From Pseudisothecium myosuroides (Eukaryota; Streptophyta; Bryopsida; Hypnales; Lembophyllaceae): DNA of 64,000 bases. The notes under the pieces were generated by a model that saw only the letters and a program-made list of their open reading frames with translations, was not told the origin of the DNA and ran no database searches. The translations under genes were made by a program, and so were the position numbers. Every line of letters begins with the position of its first letter. The first letter of the stretch is position 1. Location of the stretch: contig OX637293.1 of NCBI GenBank assembly GCA_951799445.1, forward strand, positions 19,034,001 through 19,098,000, in the 5' to 3' direction. Positions 2,887 through 62,850 of the stretch are shown piece after piece.

Positions 2887-3193
2887 AAAGAACCTATGAC
2901 TATTTGTCTAGAGCAAATTGCTACATGAATAATTTCTAACATCATATTCAAGCATAACTAAGATGATTTGACATACATTACAGAATTCTTTGAGCATATC
3001 GAATAAGCAATTAGGATAGTAATTTGTTTAGCGCTAGGAATGAAGAAAAGTTGACCATCATTATTTTTATATATATAGTGAAACATTTTGATCAAGTTGA
3101 TCATCTATTTTGATATAGTAATTGTATGCACAAGTACATGACAATTTGACTTTATTCTCCTAAATATTGAATTGGAAGCCTTTTCTTCTTTAA

Positions 3194-3952
3194 CCCCTAA
3201 TGATCCAAGGGGAGTATACTTTCAAAATGGGCCAAAAGTGCCAAAGATTTGAGCAGTTTGTTTGCTCATTTTGTCTTGAGATCAAATAGGATGTAACCGT
3301 AAGATCTCGAAGTTCACATTGGGAGTGAGCACCTCAAAAAAATTCAGATTATTTGACGCACGGTTTAGGAGATATTTAAGTTTGAAGTTTTAATTGGGTA
3401 AATCGAAATATAGGGTGGCACATTTTGAAGGAGCATATCTTTGTGACAATATTTTGAAATGATGCTCTTTTGTGCTCAATGAAAGATAAGAGATTTGAAA
3501 ATGTCAATGTAAAATTTCACAACATTCCAAGCATTTTTCAATTCATAGCGGAGCTTGCAATGCACGGTGGTCACTGAAATGAGAGTGGTATTTGTAAGAA
3601 AAAAAAAGATGGGACACTTGTCTTCTCCTTGAACTCCTTGAATCTGCTATTTTTGAGGTGAATCTGACCTTTTTGAGGTGGGTAAGAATCACATTGGTTG
3701 TCTGACTTTTTAGTCCATGACCAAACCGAACCCAAAATAATGAGCTGTAAACTACACTACACCACTTACCTTTGGAAAATTCTACAAGACGGAATTTAAG
3801 TTGGAATTTGATGAAACTACCACCATTGGATTCATATTACAATCTATTTTTTATAAATAATTGTTATTTTAAGAAAAAATTTGAAATTTGAAAACGAACT
3901 GCTCAAGAAAGAGGGGCAATGACTAGAAAATGGTCACTTGGGTCATTAGGGA
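3194..3952. mobile_element. TTAA-flanked non-autonomous element
   Basis: The left end reads TTAA then CCCCTAATGATCCAAG, and the right end, read in reverse complement, is TTAA then TCCCTAATGACCCAAG. The terminal inverted repeat is therefore about 16 bp and the target duplication is TTAA. The 759-bp interior has no coding capacity. It belongs to the same structural class as the other TTAA elements of this window but has its own terminal sequence (TAATGAYCC). Confidence 0.65.
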
Positions 3953-4172
3953 TTAAAAGTGACCTTAGACACAAAACAAAAGACAATTTGACCTTCCCCG
4001 TTTAAGAACCCTCACTAGGGAATTCCTTGGGTTTTATTTCCCGAGCTTTTCCTACACTACATACCTATAGAAAAAATCCAACATCATTCTTTGAAAATGA
4101 GTTCACGCAACTCCTTCAAAAAAAAAAGTTGGATGTAGAAATGTTTTTTATTTGTCATAATAGTTTTCCTTA

Positions 4173-4739
4173 CCCCTGAAGGACCAGGAAGGTCAAAATT
4201 GTGAAAATTGTGAAGATCTATTATAAAATGCAACTTAGAACAATATTTTAATGATGACTCTCAAATAATAGTTTTAAAATATGATTTATAGATCACATCT
4301 ATATGGTTAGATCAATAGTTATACAAACCAATATTTTACAATAGAATTTGAAAGCAGAAATTGGAAATTCCTTCTAAAATCAATTTTAGATTGAATATTT
4401 ATGATTTTTACAAGGGTTTTTTTTCTATGAGTTTAAATGCTAAGTTCTAATCATAGTGATTTGTATAGAGTTTTATTTTATTTTTTGATGCAAGTTGTTT
4501 TTGAAGGATCATTTTTTGAAATGAAAAAGTTGCTTTTTGTTGCTAAACCTCCCGATACCTTTTGAATTATAGAATATTTGCAAAGCAAAATCTTCATAAT
4601 CTAGACCGTACAAATGTTAAAGAACTAATACAAGAATCCTCAAAAAAAACTTGATGGATGAAAAAATGCATTCCGGTGAGTTTGGAATGTGTTTTCTTTC
4701 ATTGATTGTTCAAAATCTGCACTCATGGACCTTAAGGGG
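4173..4739. mobile_element. TTAA-type element, degenerate
   Basis: The left end reads TTA then CCCCTGAAGGACCAGG; the right end in reverse complement reads TTAA then CCCCTTAAGGTCCATG. The flanks resemble an uninterrupted paralogous stretch near 30,810-30,880, where the corresponding site reads TGAA. It is non-coding and about 567 bp long. Confidence 0.55.
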
Positions 4740-4743
4740 TTAA

Positions 4744-5274
4744 ATCACCCAATACACACAAAACATCTTCTTAGACATTCCAAGATTAATGATATTAACC
4801 AAAAAATGCACTCATTTTTTTTTCATTTAGATGCAAGTCTTGAAATTAAGACAAAATAAATTTAGATTGTTGAAACCAAAACTTACTTAGAAATAATTCA
4901 TTTCTATTGTCATACTATTGGTAATGTTAAACTAAAAGTTCTACTACTAGTATAATGTATTGGCAAAGTTATTTAAAATCCAATACAATCACCAGATTCA
5001 ATAGTGCTTTGCTGATATTGACTAGTAAACAATTGCCATGCATTTTTATGTGAGCTGTGGGGGTAAACAAGTGACATTATGGTATCTACATTATCAAATT
5101 CTATATGACTAGGAGAGCATGGGAGCATATTTTACAAACATTGGCAATCAAATGAATTGTTGTCTATCTTTATGTGAGTAGGGTAGAACAAGTGAGGGAA
5201 TATGATTGCCGTGTTGCCAAAGTAATCTCACTAGTCATTAGTGCAACTTTTCAAAATGTCAAGCTATCAGTTCT
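4744..5274. repeat. Dispersed repeat shared with 30.87-31.40 kb
   Basis: This segment is similar throughout to about 30,870-31,400, for example around the shared phrases TCTTAGACATTCC and AATGTATTGGCAAAGTTAT. No gene is visible in either copy. It is part of the old duplicated background of the window. Confidence 0.55.
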
Positions 5275-5278
5275 TTAA

Positions 5279-6212
5279 CCTCTAAAGTTCCATTGTCCCC
5301 TAGGGGTTTTCAAATGTATTTTGGACAAGCTCCTTCAGTTTCAATGTTCAACATGATTTTCTGAGACTTTTTGTGAAGATAGAAAAATAAATTGGCTTTC
5401 TCGGAATATAATTTTTATATCAAGCAGTGCCAAGGAGCACTGCCAAGGAACAAAGGTTATGGCACAATAATCCATATTTTAGTTTGGCGAGCAAAAATAA
5501 ATCCCCACAAAGACTTAAAATTAATTAATTAATTTTTTTCATAGATTATATTTTTATCTTTATAGAAAGCTTTGATTTGAACATTCCATTTTGATTAGTG
5601 ATGTGAAAGTTATTGACAATCTTGTTTCAAGAGCAGTCAATGCATCTTCTTGAAAACATAATTTGTTGTTTTCACTTCTGAATTCAATTTCACAATTTTT
5701 CAAAAAAAAATTTTGCAAGGTTAAATTTTTTTGCTAGAACAATCTCACCATTGAAATTAATGTGTTTCAATTTTTATCTTAGAGCTATTAATAGTTTAGT
5801 TTTTCCTTCAATAATGGACCTACATTTACATAACAATCTTTTTATGAGAGAAAATCAACTGTATTTTTTTTTATAATTTTTTTCCTAAAGTTTCAACTCA
5901 GTTCTTCGACACAAAAATTTAGAAGTTCAAAATTGTTTGTGCAAAAATTTTAAGCTAAAAAGATTCAAATTCAAAAAATCTAACCAAGCAAGGTGCAAAA
6001 AAGTATTATTCACTTTAATGCAAATATCTCGCAATCTACGTGGTCAAAGTATGTGAAATTTCTTCCACATATTTTTACACTAGTTTAGTATTAGATCCTA
6101 TGGTTAGATATGAAAATTTATTTATTTATTTATATATATTTTTTTGCTCTTTGCATTAGAAATGGTAGTTTTGAGTGTTTTTTGATAAAAATAAGGCCTT
6201 GGGACTTCATGG
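5279..6212. mobile_element. TTAA-type element, right end damaged
   Basis: It starts at TTAA then CCTCTAAAGTTCCATTG, close to the left ends at 20,981 and 60,062. The interior carries the hallmark phrases of the main family, such as a TCCACAYATT-type stretch followed by GATCCTATGGTTAGAT. The right end stops at GGCCTTGGGACTTCATGGG and the right-hand TTAA is no longer present. The sequences on each side continue in the paralogous segments near 31.39 kb and 32.32 kb. Confidence 0.5.
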
Positions 6213-6709
6213 GAAATACTGGCAAGCAAAATAATTATCCAACTTCATTGTATAATATACCATTGGAAATATCTCAACAATATTTTCCAATAATATAATA
6301 TTTGCCTAATTTTGAAAAGATACGAACAGGCGTGCTGGTTTATGTCGTCCCCGTGGCGTGCTATCACCTCAAATTGTGTTTATCTCCGAGTTCACTGATT
6401 TATTGCTACTCAGGGACATGTTTGCAGGACTGTAAATAACGAGCCTGTGATCGATTGGCTCAGTCTGCTTCGTGTTGTGTAGAAGTGTCTATCCTTTTAT
6501 CCTTTTAAATATTGGATAAAATGTACCAATTTATAGTGTATAGGCAGTCACTGCCTCTTTTGAGGTGATAGTGTCAAACCATGTCAAAAACAATAAAAAA
6601 AACATAAATGATTAAAAGAAGGGTACACGATTCAATTTTCCATTGGTTGTAAAAGAATTACACAAATTCTCTAAGGGATAAACTACCCATTTTTCATTGA
6701 ATGTAATAC
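6213..6709. other. Intergenic, no gene found
   Basis: The first 90 bases resemble about 32,325-32,410. The remainder (a stretch around 6,320-6,480 is less AT-rich) shows no supportable gene or element. Confidence 0.4.
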
Positions 6710-7236
6710 TTTTCACAACTACACATGTTGGAAGAATTAACATATCTTTTCTTGTGTGAATCTTTTGGATTCAAAATTTGGCACATGTTATCAACATAGA
6801 GATGATTTCATAATAAAATTTCATGGTAATTAAACAATTTTTTAACCCTTGGGATAGTGTCAAAGTTGGTAGCAGTGAAATTGTTTTTCACAACTACACA
6901 TGTTGGTAGATTTCAAATATATTTTTTTGTGTGAATCTTTTGACCTTAAAATTTGGCACATATATTATCAACATAGAGATGATTTCATGACAAAAACTCC
7001 ATAGTAAAATAAAAATATTTCAGCCCTTGGGAGGGTGTCAAAGTTGGCAGTAGTGAAAATTTTCTCACCACTACACTTGTTGGTAGACTTTGAATATCTT
7101 TATTTTGGTGAATCTTTTGACCTTAAAATTTGGTACACATGTTATTAACATAAAGAAATTCTTGTACCAAATATTTCATGGTAAAAAAAAAATTTCAGCC
7201 CTTGGGAGGCTAGCAAAGCTGGCAAATGTGAAATTT
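6710..7236. repeat. Tandem repeat, about 176 bp x 3
   Basis: Three imperfect head-to-tail copies begin near 6,710, 6,886 and 7,062. Each contains ACTACACWTGTTGG, then GTGAATCTTTTG, then a CCCTTGGGA-type phrase followed by GTCAAAGTTGG. The copies are diverged and non-coding. Confidence 0.75.
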
Positions 7237-7284
7237 CCTTCCTTGCAAATGCAAAAACGCCATCTTCAATGATACCCCATTGTA

Positions 7285-8141: not shown

Positions 8142-8149
8142 TATAGTAT

Positions 8150-9734: not shown

Positions 9735-10878
9735 CAACTAAAGGACTAGCCTACTATTTTTAGTAGCATAGCAATTTTGGGCAGGTACGTGTGACTAGAG
9801 ATTTCATATTTTAATCTGAAATTTTAATAAAAGGTGGGGACGAGGAATATCTTTCATATGCACTAAATTTCATGACATTTCAAAATAGGGGTCAAAAGTT
9901 ATGGCCTAATATGTTACTTTTTTCACTGGGCGGTAGTCCAGGCAAATCTGGAAAAATCACTTTTTTCAAAAATAAAAATTTGAAATTGGTTTTCCAGAGT
10001 TATATAGATCGGGGTGGATTGACCCCCTCGCTCGGCCTTACTGGGGGTGCATGTAAAAAAAGAAGCCCCCTATTTTGGGCCGTTCCAGGAAATATAATTG
10101 ATCTCATTGAACTAATTAAGGGCCTTTGATTCCAAAGATGAATTCAAAATCTGCAAAAAAAAATTTGTGCGGAAAACAGGGTCGGACCGCAGGGCCGAGC
10201 GAGGGGTCAGTTCACCCCGGCCGTTATATACAAGTGGAAAGCTTTAAATCATTCCATTTTGAAGAATGAGTAAAAAGTTATGAGGTTTTTTAGCTTGCGG
10301 GCAGTTACAAATTCTCTACTCTGAAATAAATTTTGAAATTGTTTATTTAACCCAATTTTTAATAGTTTTTGGAAAAAATAAATCATAGGATTTAGGTTGT
10401 TTATTACAACATTACAACCATTGGAATTGACATTTTTCAATTCCATAATTAAATTCTTAACAATTTAGTATTTTGGATCATTCTCTACTTCTTTCTACTT
10501 ACTACTTTTTTGTATATGTTGTACAATTCCAAATGATTTGAATTTTTTGAAGCATGTAGCCAACTTGTTTAGGAAAAAGGATTCAAAGAAGCAGCACCAT
10601 TTTGGACATTTTTTCATACAAATGTGACCTTGTGAAGTGCAGCTGCCCTGCTTTTCGTAGGAACAAAAAAAGGATTTTTGCCAATTGAAATGCTAATATA
10701 TTCCAATCCGCATGGTGGAAAATTTTGAATTCTTTTCCACATCTTCTAAAAATAGTTTACTGTAAGGTCCTATGGTTACATGTGTCAAAAAAGTTTTTTT
10801 TCAAAAATTTGGTATTTGTACTAAAAATGGCAATTTTTGAATGTTTTCGGTGAAAAAATAGTCATGGAACTCTAGAGG
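9735..10878. mobile_element. TTAA element, main family, reverse orientation
   Basis: The left end reads TTAA then CAACTAAAGGACTAGCC, a decayed form of CCCCTAAAGGACCAGCC. The right end in reverse complement reads TTAA then CCTCTAGAGTTCCATGAC. The interior is the reverse complement of 23,992-25,056. The flanking words match about 29,470 and 51,615, where the uninterrupted site reads TCAA in place of TTAA, so an empty paralogous site supports the boundaries. Non-coding. Confidence 0.7.
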
Positions 10879-12014: not shown

Positions 12015-15000
12015 CCCCTAAAGGACCGAGGCTTTTTTTCCATCAAACAACACTTGAAACTGCCATTTCTATTGCAAAGAGCAAAAAACTTTAAAAATTG
12101 TTTTTTTGGAATATCTAATCGTAGGATCTTATACTAGACTAGTATAAGTACATATGGAAGAAATTTCAGAAACTTTGACCACATGGATTGCAAAATATTT
12201 GCATCCAAAACGAAGAAAAAAAAATTTCTTACACCTTCTATGACTAGATTTTTGGCTTTGAATCTTTTTAACTTAAATTTTCTTGTACTACAGATTTTGA
12301 TTTTTTAACTTTTTATGTTGCACATTTGAGTTGAGAATATAGGGAAAAAAATTCTGGAAAAAAACACTTAACCCTTTAGTGGTCAGAGTCTTCTGGAAGA
12401 ATGAGAAGACTGTGAAAAGATGGAAATGGTGCAGGCGGATTATTACGAAGTGGAATGACAAGGGAGAGAATTGAACCGTAAGATCTTTAGTGCGTCCCCT
12501 ATTGCTGTCGATAAGAACAAGAATTGCTCCGAAACAGTGTGCTGATTGCAAGATTATGAGGTTTGACTAAATAAATACTTGGAGCCATTGACTTCCATGG
12601 GCAGTACGTTTCATGTTTGTTGTTTCCACATTTGCATGGACATCAGAGGTCGGGAAAATTAGCAAAAAACACTCACACTATAGGCAATTATGTGGAGAAT
12701 GCCAACAACTGCATACAATAGAGAAAGTCCCAGTCGCTTAGCAAATGGAGACCTTGCAATGTAGACAATGGCGTGACATAGGAAGACAAAGGCTGTTCAA
12801 GTAGTTTTGTGCTCAATTCAAGACATGCCCGTGGATTGGAAAACATGACGACCATTGGCCTGCCCTGCTGCCCGGCTGTACAATGCGACGCTGCCTCCTT
12901 TAAATAAGACAAGAAAGCTGATGTAAATTTTGTTGTACCGGATGTATGAGGTGTCCATATTGTACTACTCTACATATAGTAATAAAGAATTTCATGACAA
13001 GAATGCACAGATGGCCGCTCAGAAGACAAAAATGGAACTCGTCATTCTCTTCTGTGTGCACCTTGCATTGGCAAGAATATACGTGTCATACAAAGACAAC
13101 CCTTTTGCTATGCGTAAGATTCAGTGGCTCAACACTCAAGAATTACAGGTAAATCCAACATGATATTACATATGGAAAAAAAGCAGGCTATTGGGACTAC
13201 ACTGAACATGTTATCGGCTAGCAATGCAACATTCACAAAATACTGTTGCATTGCAACGGACAGTTGCAAGCCAATGTCAAGTCACAAAAACAGGAACTTT
13301 GTCCAATTGTCAGCGATGCCACTACGATGGCCATAAAAAAAGAGTGTCATTCTTGGCACGTACTTCACTCCGTACTATACACTCTGTCAATGTCTATGGC
13401 CCTTCCAACCAGTAACGGAGATGCAGAGGTCCATCACGTATATTGGCAATGGTAACTTCGATTTAGCTGTTCCTTTCCATGAGCTAGCAATTCAGGAGTG
13501 CGTAACGCTAGGTATTTTGCTCCACTACGTAGTGAGTGCATATGAATAGCATGGTCCACTGAGATGGTATTTCAGTCACTGACATTCCCTCCAGACCGGG
13601 CATATCAGGTATGCTATGGACATGAGCAGTAAATGAAGTGCCTTACCGTAACCAAAGAATCATTGATGTGTGTTCTTAGCTGTGCGGATGTGGAGCGACG
13701 CCCAACATGTGCTCATGAGGAAAAACAATTTGGTACTGAAGGTGAGCAACTAATTTTCTAACACAAAGGAAGGGAAATAACAAAAAAGTCATATGAATCC
13801 TAGGAAGGGCAATGCACACGACTGACTTCAGCAGACGCGACTCTTCACAAGTCACGCTAATCAAGTATACTATAAAACTACGAATTGAATCAAGTGCTAT
13901 TCAACTGTGAAGATTTGTTCATACTTTGTATTTATGTGTTTAGGAACAGTTCATGTCATGTCTTTTTATGTGGAAACCAAGAGTGCTGTGCAAGTTTGTT
14001 CATTGAAAGCTGATGAATGCAATTGCCGGCGATAGTGCTCCTTTGGCATGAGGTAGCCTTCAACAGGCTTTTTGAAATGGTTTGGCAAGTGATCAAGATA
14101 TACTTGGTTGAAATGCCGTTATATGTCCAACAACACTATGAAATAGATGCATTTAGCCTAATTAGAAGTTGAATGCTCACAAAGCTAGTCTGTCATGTTA
14201 TAAGACGTACCAATGTTCAATTAGATGAAAAGTCAATCTTCTTTAATTAATTACGCACTCTCAAATTACACACTCTGAAATTGTACATTGCACATCGTAT
14301 TTCTTCAGCTATAAATGCACGGGCACTTCCAAATTTCAAGCTTTGAACACATATCAGAGTGCATTTAGAAGCCAACTACTTCCCCATGAGGCAATGCAAC
14401 TGGAGTGTGAACTTGTAATTACATCAGACAATGTTAGTACCTGTGTTTCAATAATTTGCAAAAAATTCTAGGGGAATGATGAATTCCCTGAAGTCTTGAC
14501 GTACAAGCTAACACACAAATCACACAAACACACGTCATAGAGGTCCTAGACAGATAGATTTTGTAATCAGAAACGCTACTTTCCAGTAGGAAATGAGAAA
14601 ATATGCATTTGCTGAAACGCACCACATGAAGTTAAGTTTGAGTTAGGCACCTACTACCACGTATGCACAGAAGGTTTGTATCCATAGACTCTTGTCATTG
14701 CCTCTTGAAAACCTACTACCATAGGCACAAACCTTTGCACTAATGTACATGCCGTCATTGTTGAAATCTAAAATTTGCAAGCGGGAGCCAATTGGAGCCT
14801 TCATAGTACAGTATATAACTCGGAGGGTACCAAAAGCAATGACAAGCCTACAATGCAGGATGTATAGCTAACACACAACGCTTATTACATATCAAAATGG
14901 AGCACAACATGTTATGAGTTATTTACTATTTTTTTGAATCCTGTCCGATCGATGATCAAAAGAAGTTCTGTCGAAATATAGAACAACACCGCTTCTTTGT

Positions 15001-16138
15001 ACAACAGAGAAGCATGTCAATGACAAGGAAAAACAACCGACATTCTGCCTCGCATGAAGTTTTCCAATTTCTAAGTGTGTGCATTCAAGAGTCTGCCAAC
15101 AGTGTCTTGAATTCGAAATTCGAAATGGACGCACACTTACAGGAAAGAGACAAGTGTGAGCCTCTCTTGCCTTGTCACCAACGTTTTCTCCTCTGAAGTT
15201 GTCGTACCGCTTTCTCAATTCACTATTATAAGACATGCACCAAATTTTATTCAAGGTAGTGACGTAAGCATACGTACAAGTGTTGCTGAATTAGCCACAG
15301 CCCAGAATGGAATTTTTTTTTTGATATTTTCGATGACTTCAGAGTTGATATGATTGGACAAACAAAAATTTCAGCATTCCCAGACACCTCTTACCTTTTC
15401 CATTTATCCAAAAATATTCCTGTCGTTTCCGGAAGATCGCTTCTCTATTTCGGGTACACAACTGTTGCACTTATCTCCACAAAAAAGTGTGGATGAAAAA
15501 ACTTCACAGCCTGCGAGATACATAAGTTCTACTCTATGCATTGTCCAAAATATGGACGCTGGCGTGTTAAGGGGTTAATTTTCACTCATTAAAAAATTGT
15601 TAAGCAGAAGGAGGTTCAAGAATGAAGGGAAGACAAAACCATTAATAACTCTAAGATGGAGTTGAAACAAAATAATCCCAATAGTGGGATTATTCTAGCA
15701 AACAAATTTAACCATGTCCAACAATTCTTTTTGGAAAAATGTAAAAATTGCATTCAAAAATGAATCTTATAGGGTTTTTTTTCAAGAAGATGCTTAGATT
15801 GCCCGAAAAACTAAGATTGTCCATAATTTTTTCATCACAAGTCCAAATTGAATGAATCAAAGCTTCACATGTAGACAAAAATATAATATTTTAGGATTTA
15901 TTTTTTTTTTTTTGACTTTTTAGGATTTTTTTTGGTTGCCCGCCAATCTCCATTTTTGGCTTATTGTGCCATAATTTTTGCTCCCGGGCACCGATTTAAA
16001 TAAAAATTATATATCCACAAAGCTCTTGCAAAACTAGACAACCTCAAAAAATTCCAAAATTTTTTACTACAAATTGAGACAATAGGTACCTACCCGGACC
16101 CAAATTATCCCCTGAGGGAACAAATGGTCCTTTAGGGG
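12015..16138. mobile_element. TTAT-flanked insertion in ROCO pseudogene exon 3
   Basis: The left terminus is TTAT (12,011-12,014) then CCCCTAAAGGACCGAGGC, and the right terminus is GGTCCTTTAGGGG then TTAT (16,139-16,142). The intact paralog has a single TTAT at 35,399-35,402 between the same flanks, so this is a precise insertion with a 4-bp target duplication. The outer element proper is about 0.9 kb and belongs to the main TTAA family; a second element (12,372-15,574) is nested inside it. Confidence 0.85.
12372..15574. mobile_element. Nested 3.2-kb TTAA insertion with distinct cargo
   Basis: It is bounded by TTAA at 12,368-12,371 and 15,575-15,578. The left end reads CCCTTTAGTGGTCAGAG and the right end in reverse complement CCCCTTAACACGCCAGCG, so terminal symmetry is weak beyond CCC(C)TT. 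The related sequence near 25,875-25,890 is uninterrupted at this point (CTTAATTTTCACTC), which supports the insertion. The interior is visibly less AT-rich than its surroundings and not repeated elsewhere in the window. A short plus-strand frame at 12,930-13,163 has residues (LVILFCVHLALARIYVSYKD) vaguely like the helix near the end of piggyBac transposases, and Cys-containing frames follow to about 13,415, but I could not assemble a transposase. The function of the cargo is unknown. Confidence 0.6.
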
Positions 16139-20980: not shown

Positions 20981-21685
20981 CCCCTAAAGGCCCAAAGTCC
21001 CTTTGGGGGACACTTGGGATTTTGGGCAGGCTCGTGTGACCTGAAATTTTGAGCTAATATTTTGAAACTTTTTTTGAAGATAGGGAATCACATTAGCTTT
21101 CTAAAAATATAATTTTTTTTCTGAAATCGGTGCCCGGGAGCAAAAGTTTTGCGGTCCGAAGTCTTAAAAGGAGTTCGCCGGGCAGGAAAAAAAAATGATT
21201 TTAATTTTTTTTTTTTCCCTCAAAGATTATGTTTTTGTCTACATCTGAAGCTTTGATTCATTCTATTTGGACTAAAAATGAGAAAGTTATGAACAATCTT
21301 GATTTTTGGGCAATCTAAGTGTCTTCTTCAAAAAAAACACTTATAGAATTCATTTTTGAATGCAATTTTCAATTTTTTTCAATTTTTTTTTGACAAGGTT
21401 AAGTTTGTTTCCAAGAACAATCCCACCATTGGGATTATGGTGTTTTAATTCCATCTAAGATTTTTAAATTCTATCCGTACGGTTAGATCTACTAATGCTA
21501 TCACGAATCTTTTTCTATAAATTTTGAAAAGAAAATTTCAGAATTCCTTTTAAATTCAATTACAAGTAAAGTATTATCATTTTTTGAGTAAAACTTGTTG
21601 GAATGGATTTGAAATAAGGTTCTCTTCATATGGTGATTTTTTGAAATTTTTGTGGCCAGAAAATGGACGTCAAAGCGCTCCAGGG
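20981..21685. mobile_element. TTAA element
   Basis: The left end reads TTAA then CCCCTAAAGGCCCAAAGTCC, like the left end at 60,062. The right end, CAGGG then TTAA, is degenerate. The interior shares main-family phrases (GAAAGTTATGAACAATCTTG, TCCCACCATTGGGATTA). Non-coding, about 705 bp. Confidence 0.6.
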
Positions 21686-23436: not shown

Positions 23437-25149
23437 CCCCTAATAAATGCAATGCCCGAGGCACCACATTTTGGTGTTGACAATACTTTCAAGTTAAATA
23501 AAACCTAACCAAGTTGCTATTTTTAGAAATTCATATTTTTGAAAAAACTTTTTGAAGTCTAGTTTTAGCGTTGAAAATCCGATTTTCAAAATGATTGGTT
23601 TTGATTTTTCTATTCAGAATTTTGTGTAAGGGTGTCCATTGCAATCTTGACTTTCTGTAGTGTTGAGGGCTCTTGGAAATGAGCCTCAAATACACAAGAT
23701 CTTGGAGAAAAAATCACCTTAAAAATTCATCTAAAAAAATTGTAGAGTAGATTTTGGAAAGCCATAAATTGATTGGGGTTATGGATGTTAGGTCCTTTAA
23801 GCTCATATTTTTTTTGTGGTCAACTTTTTAGATTTGGCATGTGAAAAGAGGATTGAAAGATTGCAAGTCAGTTTTGCAGTTTTGACACCCTCATGTTCAA
23901 ACATTATAATCTTTCAATTCATAAGTGATATTGTTGTGTTTTCTTTTCCTATGTGACCTCTAACATGTCTACTTTGAATTTATACGGTTAACCCCTAAAG
24001 TTCCTTGACTATGTTTTCACCAAAAATGCTCCAAAACTGCCATTTCTAATACAAGTACCAAATTTTAGAAAAATAACTTTTTTAGACACATATAATCGTA
24101 GGATCTTATAGTAAACTAGTTTTAGAAGATGTGGAAAAAAAATTCAGAATTTTCCACCCTGCAGATTGGAAGATATTAGCATTTGAATTGGCAAAGATCC
24201 TTTTTTTGTCCCTGCGAAAAACAGGGCAGTTGCACTTCACAAGGTCACATTTGTATGAAAAAATGTCCAAAATGGTGGTGCTTCTTTGAATTCTTATTTC
24301 TAAACAAGTTGGCTACATGTTTAAAAACTTTCAAATCATTTGGAATTGTACAATATATAGGAAAGAAATAGTAAGTAGAAAAAAATAGAGAATGATTCAA
24401 AACACTAAATTGTTAAGAATTTAATTATGGAATTGAAAATTTTCAATCCCAATGGTTGTAATGTTGTAATAAAAAATCTATATCCTATAATTTTATTTTT
24501 TTCAAAAAATATTGAAAACTGAGTGAAATAAACAACTTCAAAGTTTATTTTAGAGTAGAAAATCCATAATTGCCCGCAAACTAAAATTCCTCATAATTTT
24601 TGACTCATTGATCGATATAGAATGATTCAAAGCTTTCCACATATACGTAAATTTAGAAAACCAATTTCAAATTTTTATTTTTGAAAAAAGTGATTTTTTC
24701 AAATCTGCTCGGACTACCCGCCCGATGAAAAAAGTAACATATTAGGCCATAACTTTTGACTCCTATTTTGAAATGCCATAAAATTTAGTGCACATGAAAG
24801 ATATTCCTCGTCCCCACCTTCTATTAAAATTTCAGTTTAAAATATGAAAATCTTTGGTCACACGTACCCAGGGGTTGTTTTTTTGCATTGTAGCAATACA
24901 ACATGCAGTAAATGGAGGATGGTCCCTCCAAATTTAATCCATTGAAATTGTGCCACAACATTAGAGTTTGGCACCATGGTGCTAGAAAAAAAAAAACTGC
25001 ACGTACCTACCCAAAATTGCTATGTTGCTAAAAATAGCAGGCTGGTCCTTTAGGGGTTAAATTTCATAAAAAATTGATAAAACTTATCAAAATGTTGGCT
25101 TATTGTTAAATTTAGAGCAAATTCCTAGAAGTTCAAAAAAGGCCTTGGG
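23437..25149. mobile_element. TTAA element, family B, carrying a nested element
   Basis: It begins at TTAA then CCCCTAATAAATGCAATGCCC and matches 52,903-53,540 and 55,421-56,056 up to 23,987, then resumes after the nested element at 25,061 and ends at GGCCTTGGG then TTAA (25,150-25,153); the last ten or so terminal bases are missing. Without the insert its length would be about 640 bp, as in the other B copies. Non-coding. Confidence 0.75.
23992..25056. mobile_element. TTAA element, main family, nested inside a family B element
   Basis: The left end reads TTAA then CCCCTAAAGTTCC and the right end GGTCCTTTAGGGG then TTAA. It interrupts the family B element at a position where the other two B copies run straight through. 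About 1,065 bp, non-coding; close relatives lie at 29,712-30,645 and, reversed, 9,735-10,878. Confidence 0.8.
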
Positions 25150-38200: not shown

Positions 38201-41200
38201 ACGTTCCTTATTTTTCCCCTGAATCGTGATCGGTTTGGAATTTCATCTTTTCTTTGAAATTCCTTGAGTTGCTTCATTGACATTCGCAATCTTGTTTTCC
38301 CTGTGAAGAATAAGAAAAAGAACAAGCTGCATTAGATTGAAGAATGAAATTCATCTTTTTTTTGGATGGTATTGATGACATTAAAATTACCAATTACAGT
38401 CCTTAAGAGTTTTGATGACTAAAAAACTACCCACACTATTCATCCACGTAGCTCAAAGTCCAATTTTCAACAATAGGATTTCTTAGCGCACTTGTTAAAA
38501 TGTATCTCTAAAGAGTTTAGAGTCAAAACCCTTGTTGATTGCAAGACCATGTAATTCAAACTTCAAAGGAAAGTTTCTTCCAAACATTTAGGTTGAAAAA
38601 GTTGCAAACATCGAGTATTGTCATTCAAACTATTATGTAAAAATGAATGGACTCCACAAGTATTGCTAAAGTTGCTTCTCCAATGCATTCCTTGCATGAC
38701 TAAAAGGTGTAAAAGAATGTTCTACATGAAACAACAATTCATATTCATGTTTGGAATATGCACTAAATGGAAAGATTTAAATGAGGTCAAAGGAACCAAA
38801 ACTGCAAATCATTTTGACATGAATTTGAAAAATGTCATTGATGATAGAGCCTAGCAGTGAGAATTGTGTTTGTAAAAAATTAAAAACCTCATAACCTTTG
38901 CAACACCTAATTAAATCATATTAAACCTTCAATCATTCGTGAATAACTTGTGCAACCATTGAACCTCTAGTTGACCAGTCCCATTCCCATGTGGTAAAAC
39001 TTTGATTTCAAGCTTAATGTTGCCTTTCAAATCATACATACTAATTGAATTCCAATGCAATATTTTTATTACATGAGGCAATAGTGCTATCTACCAAGAT
39101 CAAATGTTTCTATTAGTTTGGCACAACATCATAATTGTTATAAACTTTGAAATCACAAGTAAGGAAAAATTAGTAAATGTAACAAAAAGAATTCAATTAA
39201 TTTGAAATATCTTGAAGTTACTTTGAAAAATAATGTAAAACTTGTTTGAGTAATTATTTTCTTTTTTTACACATAAACACCTCCCGTGATGACCTTCAAG
39301 ACAAAATAGCGCTTTCAAGCTAATTTAGCCTCTATAAAATTGATTGGCCAAATTTTGAAATTTTTTATTTGTGAAATAATGCTTTCTTTATAGAAATTAA
39401 TTGTTGGAAATGGTTTTGGTAAAAATAAAAACATTGTGAACTTTATTAGTCTAGTGTGTACGTAAAACTACATGAACTAGAGTATTGGAATAATTTGGAG
39501 TATTGACTTCAAATGAAAAATTAAACAAACAATAATATTTGGAAATTAAACTTGAAAATCAAATTTAAAGCAAAAAATACAAATGAAATATCTTCAATAT
39601 TGTGTTGTTTGGATTCTAACACATGTAGCTTGAAATTGCAATGATTCATGGAATGATTTCATTTTTTCAAAGCTTTGAAATGGAGTACAAAAAAGATTTA
39701 TTATCGTAGTCTTCAATTTCTAAGTTACAATCAATACCAAAAATGGATACTTTGAAAGTTACAAGCATGTTTAACCAAAGTGCATACACTTTGGGGATAC
39801 AATGACCTTCAATAGAGGTTGATTTTTGTTGCTCATCATTAGGAAATGATTTGGAGACACAAAGATCTATGTATTCATATTTCGTACCTCTTTCGAGTAT
39901 TTGAAATAAGTATTTTCATGAAGTGTTTTATATATTGAAATTCTTTGATGCCTAAATTATTTGTATGATAAAAATAATAGAAAGTCTATAATATAGCAGA
40001 GGAGTCAAATTATTCTAATTCTCAACTACATTTGGTTTTAGAACGTTTAGGTTTTTGAAGGATTTGTTTTATATCTATATATCTATATATTTTTTTTAAT
40101 ATTCATTTCCGTCTTCAACTTAATCAACAATATCCACAATGAAATATGTATTTGCAAAACATGAGTACGTATAGCTTACCAGCAAATGGTTCTCCACACA
40201 AAAACACTCGTCCAGATGTTCGGTTGACAATTGCCATGCTTTGTACAATACCCCACAACTTCATTTTCTTCCTCTTTGATAATGCAGAAGATACATAATC
40301 CGCATCTCCCGACTCTTCCAAACCCGTGCTAGACAAGCCAATGTCTTCAATGTTGTGATTCTCCAAGAGTAAGTCCATCATGGCTCCAAGCACTTTGTAA
40401 CCACCGACTGCTTTACATCCATCGAAGTCAATTTTCTTCAAAGATTTGTTGGTCTTTAGGGCTTCCAAGACGGCCAAAACATTCTCAATCCCTTGTGTAT
40501 CATCCAAAGATAAATCATCTACGTCCGTCAAACCCAATTCCATTAAGGATGTATTGGTGTGAATCATGTCAACTAAGGTTTCAATCCCCTCTTTCCCTCC
40601 AATTGATTGCCATATCTCAAGCTTGGTGAGGGTGGTATTGGATTGAAGATTATGGTTCTTGGGCATCAGTGGATCCAACAACACTTTCAATTCCATGCCA
40701 CTAGAGATATCACAAGATAAGGTTTCAAGAGATTGGTTGGAACACAATGCAGTTGCTATGCTGCTATATCCACTAGTGAAGGCCTTTCGAATTGCAGTTG
40801 AATCATAATAGACCGAAAGTGTTTTGAGGGATGTGCTTGAGGCAAGCATGTCACTTATATGCTCAAATTGTGCATCTGATGTAAGAGAATGAAATTGCAA
40901 TAGTTCAAGTACATTGGGAGGGCCTTGGAAGGGCTTCATGAGCTGCTCCATTCCCTCCCCGTCCAACTTCCGTGCGCTCATCCCAAATGATTTGAGGATT
41001 CGGAGATTCCGGGGCACACCAATAATGGACATGAACTCCTGAGCCACCTCCTTTCCCACCTCACCCTTTAGACCCGAGAGCTGGAGGCGGAGGCCGAGAT
41101 CTTGAATAGCATTGTTTCCGAGAAGCACACTCGACACACACTTGGCAAATCGGACTGCGGAGCCATCCCAGCACTCAAAATAAAGTTTTCTGAATTTGTT

Positions 41201-41623
41201 GCCAGACTTGCGGAGTGCGTCAGCAAATGCTTCCACGTGTTTGCAAGAGGCGTCCCCAAGTAGAGAGATGCCCACTCTTTCACGGAATACAATTTCTGAT
41301 GACGCAACTGCCTGGAAAAGCTCACGATATCCTGCTTCCACGCCGGTGCCATGGTGAAATGTAAAATAGTCAGAGCGTCCAAAGTAAATTCTGACTTCCG
41401 AGTCTCCATCAAAAGACAAATGGTCGCATTCGCGTTCATCTTCGGGTAAGGAAGCGAGAAAGCGTGCGAACTCCGACTCCGGTTGCCCTTCTTGGGAAGG
41501 CAAATGCTCCACAGGCTCTTCGCTGGCAGGATGGGAGGCAGGACTCCGAAGCCAACGAAGGAAGAAATCTTGCCAAGTCCGAAAGCTAAACAGCCACACC
41601 AGGAAAGCGAACAGCTTCCTCAT
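35275..41623 (-). CDS. LRR-Roc-COR (ROCO) GTPase, TORNADO1-like
   Basis: A complete three-exon gene: exons 41,623-40,180, 38,300-37,033 and 36,696-35,275, with GT-AG introns of 1,879 and 336 bp, joined to about 1,377 residues. That is close to Arabidopsis TORNADO1 (about 1,380), the plant ROCO protein. Residues about 140-440 hold leucine-rich repeats. The P-loop GEPFAGKT (about 477-484) is split by intron 1. Switch II is WDMAGQ (about 552-557) and the G4-like motif THFD (about 631-634). A COR domain spans about 700-900, followed by a coiled-coil rich in Glu, His and Lys (about 1,109-1,172) and a conserved C-terminal domain. ROCO proteins bind GTP and dimerise through COR; TORNADO1 acts in leaf and vascular patterning. 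The start is the ATG at 41,623, supported by the same start in the pseudogene. The first 25 residues are strongly hydrophobic and aromatic, unusual for this family. No frame defects are seen, so it is probably functional. Confidence 0.88.
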
Positions 41624-42000
41624 GCTGGTCTCCACCCCGATGCAGTTCCAATGTAAAATCTCACAGACAATTTAACAGATGTTTCGGTGATCAGAAGAGG
41701 TCGAGGCTTGCAACCGTGTCAGCGTCGGTCCTCCAAACCCCAGCGACCCGACTCCCTGCTGTGCAATCCAAATACCTCACCCACGTACTTCCCAAGTTAC
41801 ACAACGTCGTCACTGACCTTCAATCGTTTTTACCAAATTTAAAGCCATCATGTGCCTGCAACATGTCACAGTGAAAACGGTGAAGTTCTTGCAACAGGTC
41901 GTGTGCACTGTGTACCAAGTGATTCATCCAGTCAAGCATGAGGAAGGGAAGGGAGAAATACAGCGACTATTCTCACAGACTGTGCTCTAAAGCATCAGCC
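41624..42000. promoter_or_regulatory. 5-prime flank of the ROCO gene
   Basis: It is conserved with the flank of the pseudogene (20,664-20,976) until a TTAA element interrupts that copy. It presumably contains the 5-prime leader and proximal promoter, but no TATA box or other element can be identified with confidence. Confidence 0.35.
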
Positions 42001-50724: not shown

Positions 50725-51583
50725 CCCTAAAGGACCAAGTTAGGCCTTTTTTTCTAACAAAAAACACTCAAAATTCCTATTTCTATAGCAAAGAGTAGAA
50801 AAATTGAAAATTGCTTTTTTGCACATCTAACTATATGATCTTACACCTAACTTGTATGAAAATGTGTGGAAAAAATTTCAGAATTTTTGACCGCACAGAT
50901 TGCAAAATATCTGCGTTTAAAGTGGAAAAAACAATTTTTTCAATACATTGCGGGATTAGAGTATTTGACTTTGAACCTTCTTAACTTTAATTTTTTGCAC
51001 TATAGAATTTTGAGCTTTAAACCTTTATGGTGGAGAATTGAGTTGAGAGTCTAGGAAAAATAAAGTTAGTTTATTTTTTATTCTTTAAAAAATTGTTAAG
51101 TAGAAGTAGGTGAGAGATAGAAGGAAAATCTAAAATAATTATATCTTTTAGATGGAACTAAAATGCACTAATCCCAATGGTGAGATTGATTTAGGAAGCA
51201 ACCTAAACCATGTGGAACTTTTTTTTTGAAAAATTGTAAAAATTGCATTCAAAAATGAATCTTATAAGTTATTTTTTCAAGAAGATGCCCAATTGCCCAA
51301 AAAATAAGATTGTCTATAATTTTCTCATAACAATTCCAATTGGAATGAATCAAAGTTTTCCATGTAGTGAAAAATATAATCTACGAGTTGTTGTTTTTTA
51401 ATTCAATTTTTTTTTTTAAATTGTTGTTTCTGTGCACAAATTGAAAAAAAATTATATTTCCATATAGCTAATCAATTTTTCTATTTTAAAAAACAGTTTT
51501 AAAAAATTAGGAGAAAAATTTAGCCCGTAGGTACCTACCTGAAATTCCATTTGTCCCCCAAAGGAACAATGATTCTTTAGGAG
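50725..51583. mobile_element. TTAA element, main family
   Basis: The left end reads TTAA then CCCTAAAGGACCAAG and the right end GATTCTTTAGGAG then TTAA. The interior matches 60,062-60,989 in reverse orientation (phrases TTTTTGACCGCACAGATTGC, GAGTTGAGAGTCTAGG). 859 bp, non-coding. Confidence 0.75.
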
Positions 51584-51587
51584 TTAA

Positions 51588-52182
51588 CAATATTTTACAC
51601 TCACATGTAGAAATGATCTGCTCAATCAAGTTGTTGTGTCATTCTAGAATTAAAAAATAAGCACTCCATGGTTATCAATTAAAAGATTAAATTGCAATCA
51701 ATCAATCAATTTTAGGAATTCAAAAAAATTAAATTGCAGTAAAAACTAGACTTGATAAGCTCCCTTGCATTAGTTGAATACAAATTCAAAAAAGATCATT
51801 TTTATGACTAAAATGCAAAAAAAATAGAAAAGAGTAAAAGTTATCAAACTACACTATAAGGTGATTTATAGATTTGCCAATTTCTTATATAAGAAAGTCA
51901 AACAATATCACAAAGAGGGAAAATCCAACACCATTCATTGAGAATGTGTTCAAGCAACTCCTTCAAGAAACATTGGATGAAGAAATGTTTTTTTTCCATC
52001 CTAGAGGCCTCCTTGAAATCATTGAATAGACACCAAACGCCCTCTTCATCTCAAACTCTCAAAGTCTTGAATTCAATATTAAAATGTCATTTTTTTATTA
52101 CTATTTCATAATAATTGGCAGTGTATACTTTTTTGGTACTAACTCAATTGATGATTGAATCAGTGTCTGCTTTTTTAATACT
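51588..52182. repeat. Dispersed repeat shared with 11.0 and 29.5-30.9 kb
   Basis: 51,610-52,030 matches 29,465-29,707 joined to 30,650-30,870 and supplies the uninterrupted version of two TTAA insertion sites. Confidence 0.6.
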
Positions 52183-52902: not shown

Positions 52903-53540
52903 CCCCTAAATGCCCAAGGCACCCAATATGGGTGTTGACAGTACTTTAAAGTTAAATAAAATCTAACCAATTTTCTATTTTTAGTAGTTTATATTTTTGA
53001 AAAATTCTTTTTGAAGTCTAGTTTTAGCATCTAAAATCCAATTTTGAAAATGATTGATTATGATTTTTCTATTCAAGATTTTGTATAAGGGTACCCATTG
53101 TAATCTTGACTTTCCGTAGCCGGTAGAGGACTTTTGGATATGAGCCTCAAATACACTAGATCTTGGAGAAAAAATCACATTAAAAAATCATTTAAAAAAA
53201 TTGTAGAGTAGATTTTGAGAAGATGTAAATTGATTGAGGTTATGCATGTTAGGTCCTTTAACCTCATATTTATTTGGTGATCAACTTTTGAGATTTGACT
53301 TGTGAAAAAAGGATTCCAAAAATTTCTTAGTTTTAACACCCTCATGATCAAACATTATATCTTTCAATCAATAACTGATATTGTTGTGTTTTCTTTTCCT
53401 ATGTGATCTCTAACATGTCAAGTTTGAATTTGTATGGTTACAATTCAAAAAAAATTGATACAACTTATCAAAATGTTGGCTTTTTGTTCAACTTAGAGCA
53501 AAATTCAAGAAGCTGAAAAAAGGCCTTGGGCATTTAGGGG
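52903..53540. mobile_element. TTAA element, family B
   Basis: The ends are TTAA then CCCCTAAATGCCCAAGGC and GCCTTGGGCATTTAGGGG then TTAA, an 18-bp near-perfect inverted repeat. 638 bp, non-coding. It shares its right TTAA with the left TTAA of the next element. Confidence 0.88.
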
Positions 53541-53544
53541 TTAA

Positions 53545-54512
53545 CCCTAGACCGCCCATGGCCGTTTTGGGTAAAAAACATCCTAGCTTTTGAAGTGCTA
53601 TAAATCTAAATGTGACTAAGTAATGAAGATCTTAACCGTACAATCATGTAGTAAACATGTTGTAGATGTCATGGATCAAATTTGAAGTCATTTGACCGTG
53701 TAGATTGCAAGATAATAATGTTTTAGTGTTGAAAAAGAATGCTGAAATTTTCCTAAAAACACATTTAGAGGCCAAATTTGATTTCTAAACCTAATCAAAT
53801 GAAAAAACTTTAAACTACAATGTGATTCAAAATCAGGATACAAACACATTGGTGAAAAAAATATCATTCAATTGACTCAATGTGTTTGCAAAATGGCTTG
53901 CAAATGTCAAAAATAGGCAAGAAAAGTTGCAAAAAACACATCTAGGGCTGAACTTCCTTCTACTAAAATGCTTCTCAGTCATTCATAACCTCTTGGATTG
54001 ATATGAAATTCTAGCCACACAAACTAGACTAGTATGTGCAACTTTCTCAAAAAAATTTATTGGAAATGGACACTGTATGAAGCAGATACAAGCCGCCAAA
54101 GTTCACTGTAGTCCAAGAATGCCGGGATTTTGAATTTCGAATTGCTCCCAAACATTCAAAAAAACTTGGATTGACGTGAAAATTTTACCACAATAACTAG
54201 ACTTCAAGGGGAATATAACCCAACAAATTTTTATTGAAATCGAACAACAGATGAAGGAGATACAAGCCCCCGAAGTTGCAGCCATGAATTGCACTTTGGT
54301 GAATCAAATTGAACCTGTGAACTTCGATTGGCTTCCAAAAAATCATTACCTCTTGGATTGATCTGAAAATTTTACTACACAAACTAGAAGAAAAGGCGCA
54401 AATTTTACAACAAGTTTTATTGAATTTGGACATCGGATGCAAAAGTTACAATACTTTGAATTTAACTTAAAACTATGTGAGGACACTTTTTGTCCTCTTG
54501 GGCGGTCTAGGG
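53545..54512. mobile_element. TTAA element, family C
   Basis: The ends are TTAA then CCCTAGACCGCCCA and, in reverse complement, TTAA then CCCTAGACCGCCCAAG. The terminal repeat is distinct from families A and B, yet the target site and CCCTA start are the same. The interior has four loosely repeated motifs resembling TCTTGGATTGATMTGAAAWT (near 53,990, 54,165 and 54,352). 968 bp, non-coding. It sits in a protein-coding exon of the IMPACT pseudogene. Confidence 0.88.
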
Positions 54513-55420: not shown

Positions 55421-56056
55421 CCCCTAAATGCCCAAGGCACCAAAATGTGGTGTCCAAGAAACTTTGAAGTTGAATAAAACCTTATCAAATTGCTATTTTT
55501 AGTAGTTTATATTTTTGAAAGATTCTTTTTGAAGTCTAGTTTTAGCATCAAAAATCCAATTTTGAAAATGAATGATTACGATTTTTCTATTCAAGATTTT
55601 GTTCAAAGGTACCCATTGCAATCTTGACTTTTCGTAGTATTGAGGGCTCTTGGAAATGAGCCTCAAATACACTAGATCTTGAAGAAAAAATCACACTAGA
55701 AATTCATTTAAAAAAATTGTAGAGTAGATTTTGAAAAATCATAAATTGATTGGGGTTATATTTGTTAGATCCTTCAACCTCATATTTTTTTGGTCTTGAA
55801 CTTTTTAGATTTGACATGCAATAAGAGAACTCAAAGATTTTTATAGTTTTAACACCATGATGATCAAACATTATAATCTTTCAATCCTTAAATGATATTG
55901 TTGTGTTTTCTTTTCCTATGTGATCTCTAACATGTCTTGTTTGAATTTGTACGGTTACAATTCAAAAACAATTGATTGAACTTATCAAAACGTTGGCTTT
56001 TGTTCAATTTAGAGTAAATTTCAAGAGGCTCAAAACAGGCCTTGGGCATTTAGGGG
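55421..56056. mobile_element. TTAA element, family B
   Basis: The ends are TTAA then CCCCTAAATGCCCAAGGC and GGCCTTGGGCATTTAGGGG then TTAA. 636 bp, closely similar to 52,903-53,540 over its entire length. Non-coding. Confidence 0.88.
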
Positions 56057-60057: not shown

Positions 60058-60061
60058 TTAA

Positions 60062-60989
60062 CCCCTAAAAGCCCATTGTCCCTTCGGGGGACAAATGCAT
60101 TTTCGGGCATGTACCTTTTTGCTGAAATTTTCTCCTGATTTTTTTGAAATTTTTTGTGAATATGAAGAATTGAGAGAGGTACGTGGCAGGAAAAAAAATT
60201 TGAAATCGGACCTTTGAGCGAGAAGTTATGCCATTTCTTGGCATGCATGGGGACGGGGGGCAACAAAAAAAAAATTTGCAAAATTTTGAATTTTTTTTTT
60301 TAAATATTTTTTTTTCTCATAGATTATATTTTTTTCTATCTGGAAAGCTTTGATTCATTTCATTTGGATTTGTTATGAGGAAGTTATGGACATTCTTGTT
60401 TTTCGGGCAGTTAGAGCATCTTCTTGAAAAAATAACTTCTAGGATTCATTTCGGAATGCAATTTTTGTAATTTTTCAATTTTTTTTTTTTGGAATGGTTT
60501 AGTTTACTTTCTAGAACAATCTCACCAATTGGGATTAGTGCATTTTAATTTCATCTAAAATATATAAATATTTTAGATTTTCCTTCTATCTTGTACCTAC
60601 TTCTACTTAACAATTTTTTAAAGAATGATAATTAAGTTTTTTTGAGTTTTTTTTTTTTTTCCCTAGACTCTCAACTCAATTCTCCACTGTACAGATTTAA
60701 AGCTCAAAACGCTGTAGTGCAAAAATTTTAAGTTAAAAATGTTTAAAGACAAAAAATCTGGTCCCGCAATGTGCTGAAAAACTTGTTTTTTCCACTTTAA
60801 ATGTAGATATCTTGCAATCTGTGCGGTCAAAAATTCTGAAATTTTTTCCACACATTCTCATACCAATTAGGTGTAAGATCCTATGGTTAGATGTGAAAAA
60901 AAAACAATTTGAATTTTTTGTACTTTTTGCTATAGAAATGGCAGTTTTGAGTGTTTTTTGGCAGAAAAAAGGCCTTGGGCCTTTAGGGG
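60062..60989. mobile_element. TTAA element, main family
   Basis: The ends are TTAA then CCCCTAAAAGCCCATTG and GGCCTTGGGCCTTTAGGGG then TTAA. The interior is the reverse of 50,725-51,583 over its right two-thirds. 928 bp, non-coding. Confidence 0.82.
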
Positions 60990-61418
60990 TTAAAAACGCA
61001 CTCATAAATCATAACCTAAACACTACATTGCAAAGAAATGAACATCAGCTACCTCTTCAACACCAATTCATGGACGTCCCACTCGCTTACACAATCATGA
61101 AAGTAAATGATATCCCAATGTGACGGATTACTAGTCTCAATCCTCACATACAAATCCAAAACTGTAGCTAAGCACAGTAAACCCTAATTCTCGAACCAGC
61201 TCAAACAAGCGTCACTTTCGCATCTAAACCCCAAAAGTTTGATTATCTAATCTTCCGCACCGTGGAAACCAAGTCGAACACCAAAATTATTCTAAGAAAT
61301 GGACCTTCACACCCTACCAAATTGCAAACCATGTCGATGCCTAACTTCCCATCGCAACAGAGAAAAAATATGCCAAATGAAGCCCCAAAAGAAACAAAAA
61401 AATTTGGCGAAGGAAATG

Positions 61419-61560
61419 TGTACTTCAGCGAGTGAGACGTACCTCGAAAAGTCTCGGAAGAAGTTATGGTGCACAATTTACAACGACCACTCCATTTGCC
61501 GATGCGAACACACCAACAACAGCACCAGGAACTCGGTTCGGCGAAGAGCAACTGGGCGGC
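61419..61560 (-). other. Possible upstream exon, product unknown
   Basis: A moderately GC-rich stretch ends, on the minus strand, at GACTTTTCGAG before GTACGT (61,442). One frame encodes RVPGAVVGVFASANGVVVV. It could be the first exon of the gene represented at 59,138-59,384, but the frame breaks before the donor and the link is speculative. Confidence 0.25.
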
Positions 61561-61569
61561 ACTCTGAGA

Positions 61570-62003
61570 TTATCTTCATCCAGGCTCTTCATCCACTATC
61601 TGTTTCATTCATCCTTAACGCTTCTCATTCAATACAAGGGACTTCCGTTACACTGATTTATCCTAAATTAGCATCACCTTGAAAATTAGTGTCGCCACAA
61701 AATTTCATTTTTTTTAATATTGGTTCAACAGGGTAATATTTCAAACTGCACTAATTCAAAATAGGATGACTATAGTAAATTAGTGTTACAAGTGTTATTA
61801 AGATAAATCCGTGTAGGACAAATTTGTGTAGTCTCATGTGTTGAATATATGAGGGTTCTGAAATTAATTATATTGACACTTGGGTATCAAGTATGACCCA
61901 CACCAAGGTAATAGTAAAGTTTCAATTACAAGCAAGATTATTGTTGAACAAGTTCATGATAATTCTAATTCTAATTGCTCAAGGCATTTGTGACCTTCTT
62001 GAA
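61570..62003. repeat. Repeat shared with 25.16-25.56 kb
   Basis: Similar to 25,160-25,560, including GCTTCTCATTCAAT and the phrase GACACTTGGGTRTCAA. No gene seen. Confidence 0.55.
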
Positions 62004-62846
62004 CTCCTAAAAAATTGAGGTCTTTTTTTGCATCAACAGCCATTCAAAATTGCCATTTCTATTGCAAAGAGATTTTTATTTATTTTTATTTTTATTTTTT
62101 GGCATATCTAACAATAGGATCTTGTACATGACCAAATATCAGAATGTGTGGAAATTTTTTGACCGTACAAAGTACACAAACTGGATTATTTGCACCTTTG
62201 AGTGACTAGATTGTAAAACTTTGAACCTTCTTGGGCTTGAAATTTTTGCACTGCACATTTTTGTTTTAAATATTTTGATATTGCAAATTTGAGTTGAGAA
62301 CTTGTGAAAAAAATCTCAAAAACATCCTTTAATTTTAATTTGTAATTCTTTAAGAAATTGTTTTGTAGAAGTAGTTACAAGATAGAAGAAATAACTAAAT
62401 TGTTAATAGTTCCAAGATGAAATTGAAACCAAGTGGCATAGATTGTTCTAGCAAGTAAACTAAACCTTGTAGAAACTTTTTTTTCTAATTTGCAAAAATG
62501 GAGTTCTAAAAGAAATCCAATATTTTACTTTTTTTCAAAAAAATGCTCTTATTGCCTAAAATTTGAATGAATCAAATTTTTACATATAGACAAAAATATA
62601 AACTATAAAAAATAGATTTAAGAAAAAAGTATTTCTAAATTTTTTTTGTTTTTTTTGTTCAAGCTTGACTAATTTTTGGTTTAAATGGCATGATTTTTGC
62701 TCCCGAGGACTAATTGAAATAGAAAATATATATTTATAAAATACAAGTATTATTTTATCTTCAACAAAATTTCAAAAAATCACACCAAAAATTCAGATTA
62801 TAGGAACCTACTCAAATCTTCAGCAGGACACTTTGGACTTTAGGGA
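62004..62846. mobile_element. TTAA-type element, decayed, main family
   Basis: The left end is TGAA then CTCCTAAAAAATTGAGGTC, a decayed form of the left end at 12,015; the right end reads GGACTTTAGGGA then TTAA. Interior phrases match the main family. 843 bp, non-coding. Confidence 0.55.
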
Positions 62847-62850
62847 TTAA

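Follow-up and report, generated by a model that had tools for sequence, protein, structure and literature searches.

Elements of the window

The stretch of DNA analysed here, referred to as the window, comprises 64 kb of contig C7 (G000:C7:19034001-19098000; GC content 35%) in a 388-Mb assembly that very probably derives from a moss. Fourteen elements were counted in it, the degraded and interrupted copies among them by self-comparison of the window and by comparison with fetched loci. Together, the 14 cover ~14.1 kb or 22% of the sequence (a few element ends differ in this sum by 1-8 bases from the coordinates listed below). These elements are almost certainly non-autonomous members, similar to miniature inverted-repeat transposable elements (MITEs), of a large piggyBac-superfamily population in this genome. 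Their number and share agree with the preliminary description of the window, which had estimated about 14 elements in roughly a fifth of it, and the six coordinate pairs named there (23992-25056, 29712-30645, 52903-53540, 53545-54512, 55421-56056 and 60062-60989) proved to be exact; each of the six starts with CCC(C)T, finishes with AGGG(G) and adjoins TTAA on both sides. Among all 14, TTAA was found on both sides of 11 elements and TTAT on both sides of one (12015-16138), while two are represented by the left end alone (5279-6213, 20981-21476). The 11 TTAA-bounded elements include 23437-25149, which is without a right terminal repeat, and 12372-15574, whose ends match weakly. The elements are as follows, with the strand given where it was assigned:

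3194..3952: 759-bp non-autonomous TTAA element; ends CCCCTAATGATCC / (T)CCCTAATGACCC, inverted repeat I2, TTAA at both outer edges
5279..6213: degraded 60062-family copy; TTAA precedes the left end CCTCTAAAGTTCC, the right end is eroded
9735..10878, minus strand: degraded 23992-family copy; TTAA on both sides, long blocks 84-91% identical to 23992-25056 / 29712-30645
12015..16138, minus strand: 60062-family copy between two TTAT; a later TTAA insertion lies within it
12372..15574: 3.2-kb TTAA-flanked insert nested in 12015-16138; ends CCCTTTAG.../...TTAAGGGG, weakly alike
20981..21476: 60062-family copy, left end alone
23437..25149, plus strand: 55421-family copy into which 23992-25056 has inserted; its right terminal repeat is no longer present
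23992..25056: non-autonomous element of 1,065 bp; apparent deletion derivative, related to the transposase-bearing L022 and L020
29712..30645: 934-bp non-autonomous element of the 23992 family; unfilled paralogous site at ~51,809
50725..51583: 60062-family copy; ends CCCTAAAGGACC / CTCCTAAAGAATC, TTAA on both sides
52903..53540, plus strand: 638-bp element; CCCCTAAATGCCCAAGGC ends, TTAA at 53541-53544 common to the next element (53545-54512)
53545..54512: 968-bp element; CCCTAGACCGCCCA ends, 18/18 complementary bases including TTAA
55421..56056, plus strand: 636-bp element; CCCCTAAATGCCCAAGGC ends
60062..60989: 928-bp element; ends CCCCTAAAAGCCC / CCCCTAAAGGCCC, both ~72% alike to the ends of the transposase-bearing L014

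When the window was scanned for TTAACCC...GGGTTAA pairs in which 9 or more of the 12 terminal bases are complementary, 11 pairings were obtained, cross-pairings of neighbouring elements included; 100 dinucleotide shuffles yielded 0.01 on average and at most 1. For the element that begins at 3194, a right end at 4739 had been assigned; the start was verified, but the true end is at 3952, where an inverted end with TTAA is present, and copies outside the local array end at about base 763 of the 3194-4739 query, which was hence rejected as a single element. Among the matches listed, copies of 3194-3952 (~760 bp, 83-87% identical) were found beyond the local C7 array on C1-C10, and the first half of the longer query is likewise dispersed (40 scored of 3,834 candidates). 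The insert at 12372-15574 has five copies in the local C7 duplication, and its ends are related to short stretches elsewhere. A further end at 6846 (CCCTTGGG) was not accepted as an element, its surroundings being a local repeat with no partner end seen.

The window lies inside a local segmental duplication, in which the elements recur with 87-100% identity on C7 at ~18.9-19.3 Mb, spaced ~50-90 kb. Because of this duplication, the window copies and their C7 neighbours cannot be regarded as independent insertions. No transposase was found in the window by tblastn with two host transposases as queries (E 0.01).

Transposase genes and coding elements

The transposase had been expected elsewhere in the genome, and many copies were indeed detected there. 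The search with the piggyBac family model PF13843 (DDE_Tnp_1_7) gave 899 candidates, and all 116 that were scored pass the family cut-off, with up to 287.5 bits; many of the scored frames are without stops and many others contain stops. The same model gave no match in 14 control genomes. E-values were 2.3e-84 for L009, 4.2e-81 for L014 and 2.8e-76 for L024. Twenty of the at least 116 transposase places were read as 9.9-kb stretches. In 14 of these 20, the gene is situated between CCCC ends with TTAA outside, giving elements of 5,068-6,616 bp; 13 of them were found by a rule that included TTAA, whereas the fourteenth, L022, was recognised by its likeness to a window element. Thus, the piggyBac-type identity proposed from the window alone is supported by sequence, since a DDE_Tnp_1_7 transposase is encoded inside elements which have matching ends and adjoin TTAA.

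The host proteins resemble solved piggyBac structures as well. A phmmer search of a host protein against the PDB matched piggyBat (9c0f, 3.2e-37) and the piggyBac transposase of Trichoplusia ni (T. ni; 6x67, 1.2e-29). The predicted model of the environmental relative P0002 (mean pLDDT 81.3; 424 of 646 residues at pLDDT of at least 90, residues 1-106 unreliable) had 6x67 (E 2.2e-27) and 9c0f (5.0e-26) as first matches, and the fold evidence refers to this relative. The three catalytic aspartates are kept in 17/17, 16/17 and 16/17 host sequences, and a CxxC...CPGC...C...C...H pattern is present at the C-terminal end of the L009 and L024 proteins. By eye, the N-terminal region before the DDE domain in the L009 and L024 transposases looks chromo- or Tudor-like; it is weakly conserved between L009 and L023/L024/L027 and without a match in Pfam. 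The elements L015 and L016 are related to each other (6,074 identical bases, 58 mismatches, 19 gap positions), and the left flank of L015 equals the right flank of L016 in inverted orientation while their other flanks differ, which suggests insertion beside the same repeat or a rearrangement.

Two of the small window elements share both ends with these coding elements. Starting at its very first base, 23992-25056 matches one end of L022 (positions 1-385) and of L020 (1-365), and its last 47-51 bases align to the other ends of both (73-83% identity in these alignments), the coding middle being absent. Similarly, the first 97 and last 196 bases of 60062-60989 align to the two ends of L014 with ~72% identity, again without the coding middle. 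For 29712-30645 one end alone was matched in L020 and L022 (the first 375-384 bases), and its last bases were matched among the stretches in L026 alone. Shared ends without the coding middle are the usual anatomy of deletion derivatives that are moved in trans. Since coding elements with similar ends exist in the same genome, the assignment of the 23992 and 60062 families to piggyBac is based on more than the target site.

Genome-wide ends and target site

The flanks were also compared throughout the genome. The exact 18-mer end CCCCTAAATGCCCAAGGC occurs 2,216 times, with no occurrence of the reversed control, and 1,936 of these ends (87.4%) directly follow TTAA, compared with ~1% expected by chance from the window base composition. 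This supports, at genome scale, the TTAA flanks proposed from the window. A looser TTAA-end motif, TTAACCCCTNANNGNCC, has 25,374 occurrences versus 5 for the reversed pattern, which corresponds to about one end per 15 kb. As is typical of piggyBac, the ends begin with CCC(C)T or CCCCA. The commonest ends, CCCCTAAA (e.g. 23992, 52903), contain CCCTAAA, the plant telomere repeat unit; this is probably a coincidence, but relevant when telomere-like words are counted here.

Single families are dispersed as nearly intact copies. A first look with the 636-bp element at 55421 produced 4,555 candidates, and the 40 scored yielded 41 matches with 94-100% identity, 40 of which are full length to within one base. 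Ten of these 40 candidates were chosen by position, with the flanks not known beforehand; both ends were inspected in nine of them and a single end in the tenth. TTAA adjoins eight of the nine left ends, the ninth abutting another element end; likewise it adjoins eight of the nine right ends, the ninth being one base off, as well as the single end. The 53545 element is also dispersed, as 39 of the best 40 of 1,825 candidates scored cover at least bases 7-962 and are 92-100% identical.

Unfilled sites provide a view on the state before insertion. Of the 25 joined flanks, 16 were queried and 40 of 1,255 candidate matches were scored, which gave spanning matches for five junctions (L020 with 16 places, L041 with 1, the 60062 element with 2, L014 with 1 and L029 with 5). 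Twelve unfilled sites were fetched; nine carry a single TTAA at the join instead of the two around an insertion, L058 among them being aligned with an extra A, and three differ there by one or two bases. The flanks of 9735-10878 aligned poorly to 51720-51900, which was not used as an unfilled site, and the alignments for 12372-15574 were gappy at the join and not counted.

Evidence for recent transposition was obtained from the coding elements. The exact left end of the L009 family is present five times genome-wide, and the family comprises five transposase places with one common score. Its copies are 99.93-100% identical to L009 over the 4,116-5,408 bp compared, contain open frames of 895-1,056 aa, and are situated on five chromosomes in different flanks with TTAA at all ten ends, four of which (L009, L010) were found using TTAA as criterion and six were fetched without it. 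The near identity of copies at TTAA on five chromosomes indicates that the transposition was recent. A second set comprises six places sharing a score of 261.1 bits and a 1,091-aa frame.

Relationship of the transposases and a conserved upstream domain

Of the 108 sequences taken for the tree, 3 were removed on account of coverage; among the 20 host stretches, L010, L013 and L016 had been omitted beforehand, being duplicated or broken. A single clade with support 0.995 unites the 17 host cores and 50 environmental proteins (67 of 105 tips) and excludes the three animal-named sequences; the root is arbitrary and the set is without a named algal or fungal piggyBac. The database matches carrying an organism name were all from animals.

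A conserved domain of ~100 residues was found upstream of the transposase in 17 of 20 loci, being absent from L014-L016. Its consensus reads ILNCLDE..LL.LP...W..LFYRQ.A..LGW...WPD. The profile was built from 10 of the 17 loci and the other seven are further matches, with L021 weak and L009 and L010 being copies of one family. In all 15 loci measured, the domain is on the same strand as the transposase and upstream of it, at a distance from a 101-base overlap to 2.3 kb. The reversed control gave no matches. The domain has no credible match in Pfam or the PDB, where a hit to a transient receptor potential channel (E 0.013) was judged to be due to chance. Its dN/dS is ~0.15 and 0.16 in two pairs, the second of which has saturated dS. 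None of the database relatives compared contains it, although a separate exon might escape gene calls made in a single frame.

Host genome and neighbouring genes

The host assignment is based on a LEAFY gene on C5, which reads KPKMRDYVHCYALH; an aspartate at the diagnostic position presumably marks mosses. Algae, moss and other plants differ in LEAFY binding, according to a study on this gene (PMC4351887). Four more places (on C10, C1, C8 and C3) score 30-44 bits with the LEAFY SAM-like domain. The transposase places are distributed over C1 to C11, eleven contigs of 17-55 Mb which represent ~380 of the 388 Mb.

Between the elements of the window, the region 35275-41635 contains long open frames on the minus strand that appear to be host genes. 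They include a protein that by its motif looks like a Roco-type GTPase, with PF16095 in 9 of 14 database relatives, and by eye also a leucine-rich repeat protein.

Discussion

The assignment of the window elements to the piggyBac superfamily mainly relies on the genome-wide TTAA flanks, the transposase genes and the ends shared between small and coding elements. Several observations weigh against it. TTAA does not adjoin 280 of the 2,216 CCCCTAAATGCCCAAGGC ends, and for 13 coding elements it served as search criterion and is hence not independent evidence. The unfilled sites inside the window show other letters than TTAA, namely CTAA in the paralogue near 51,809 for 29712-30645, and TTAC in two window relatives of the 55421-family copy that received 23992-25056; moreover, 11 of the 16 queried junctions gave no unfilled site among the scored matches. 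The ends of six of the 20 stretches (L011, L013, L018, L021, L025 and L026) were not found, relaxed rules included, which also applies to the stretch that matches the last bases of 29712-30645. Finally, the host proteins gave no score with the piggyBac zinc-finger model PF13842, and the 20 stretches contain no coding partner for two of the small families, as discussed next.

It has been considered whether the small elements might belong to another superfamily that merely resembles piggyBac, such as Tc1/mariner with a TA target or PIF/Harbinger with TAA/TTA. A duplication of TA, read as TTA/ACCCC...GGGGT/TAA, yields identical letters for any TTAA insertion. However, TTAT on both sides of 12015-16138 favours a 4-bp duplication over TA, 3-bp readings leave the terminal repeats asymmetric, and the transposase-bearing elements with similar ends encode DDE_Tnp_1_7. 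Target duplications of 3 bp or 8 bp, as for PIF/Harbinger or hAT, were not found, the transposases of these two superfamilies not having been searched genome-wide. Taken together, another superfamily is hardly credible. It is improbable, too, that piggyBac-like elements are real yet some small families, those with CCCCTAAATGCCC and CCCTAGACCGCC ends (52903/55421 and 53545), were moved by other transposases. The preliminary description had proposed a search for a transposase gene with ends matching those of the small elements; a partner was identified for CCCCTAAAGG-type ends, but none for CCCCTAAATGCCC or CCCTAGACCGCC in the 20 stretches. Against foreign transposases, the CCCCTAAATGCCC family has its TTAA target at 87.4% of the ends, the CCC(C)T starts are alike, and the partner may be among the rest of the at least 116 transposase places.

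The origin and the present state of the piggyBac population have to be regarded as well. The moss assignment depends on one LEAFY residue, and the piggyBac copies could in principle represent animal contamination. Transposase places occur on all of C1 to C11, though, C5 also holds the LEAFY gene, and the transposases form a clade apart from the animal-named sequences, so that a host other than a moss or a contamination is very improbable. A dead relic without present transposition would be consistent with stops in many transposase frames and with the 83-95% identity of many small copies. This explanation is rather unlikely in view of the five L009-family copies with almost identical sequences and open frames at five different sites, and of the six places with equal score and an identical 1,091-aa frame. 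A piggyBac population that has moved recently, in what is most probably a moss genome, remains the preferred reading.

Such a population might function as follows. The transposase from the coding elements would bind the terminal repeats in trans, excise the element at TTAA and reinsert it at a new TTAA, like characterised piggyBac; excision and insertion at TTAA are established for the T. ni enzyme. The small elements may have multiplied through this mobilisation in trans. The upstream domain could be spliced to the transposase, as we infer, or form a second product, and it might help in end recognition or regulation.

The elements share with T. ni piggyBac (6x67) the catalytic aspartates, the core fold, the duplicated TTAA target and ends starting with CCC(C)T, and their C-terminal Cys/His pattern appears to be similar. 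They differ from it in the low sequence identity (21% in the fold match of the P0002 model), in their length of 5.1-6.6 kb compared with ~2.5 kb, in the extra conserved upstream domain and in the plant host. The piggyBat of Myotis lucifugus (9c0f) is the best sequence match among solved structures (3.2e-37), but comes from an animal and is shorter (578-aa chain), and it is not known to have such an upstream domain. Compared with piggyBac-type MITEs, which are equally non-coding and TTAA-flanked, the elements described here share their genome with coding elements that have similar ends.

Records of piggyBac in plants are sparse. In the passages considered, a review on angiosperms names PiggyBac as one of seven MITE superfamilies (PMC10004981), the repeat table of the fern Ceratopteris contains 1,230 PiggyBac entries with 122 kb (PMC6890710), a beetle paper from 2025 mentions piggyBac as occasional in plant genomes, e.g. 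in red algae (PMC12732532), and plants are named among piggyBac sources (PMC10813416). Unlike the present case, land-plant elements that bear a transposase and moved recently are not described in these passages. For mosses, the open-licence literature surveyed yielded no report of elements with a piggyBac transposase, which does not prove their absence from print. The superfamily itself is known. As far as the listed results show, the new aspects are the conserved upstream domain and the presence, in a land plant, of a large population that bears transposases and moved recently. It is somewhat more likely than not that mosses possess their own anciently diversified and still mobile piggyBac branch, which acquired an N-terminal domain absent from animal piggyBac and reached a substantial share of the genome via miniature elements mobilised in trans.

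PiggyBac is one of the main tools for seamless gene insertion and removal, and its well-known active members come from animals. Thousands of piggyBac-type ends together with near-identical coding copies would offer a plant-adapted system to test. They would also caution that repeats lying between TTAAs in moss genomes may be unclassified or mislabelled, and would make a case for asking how the piggyBac superfamily reached land plants and persisted there.

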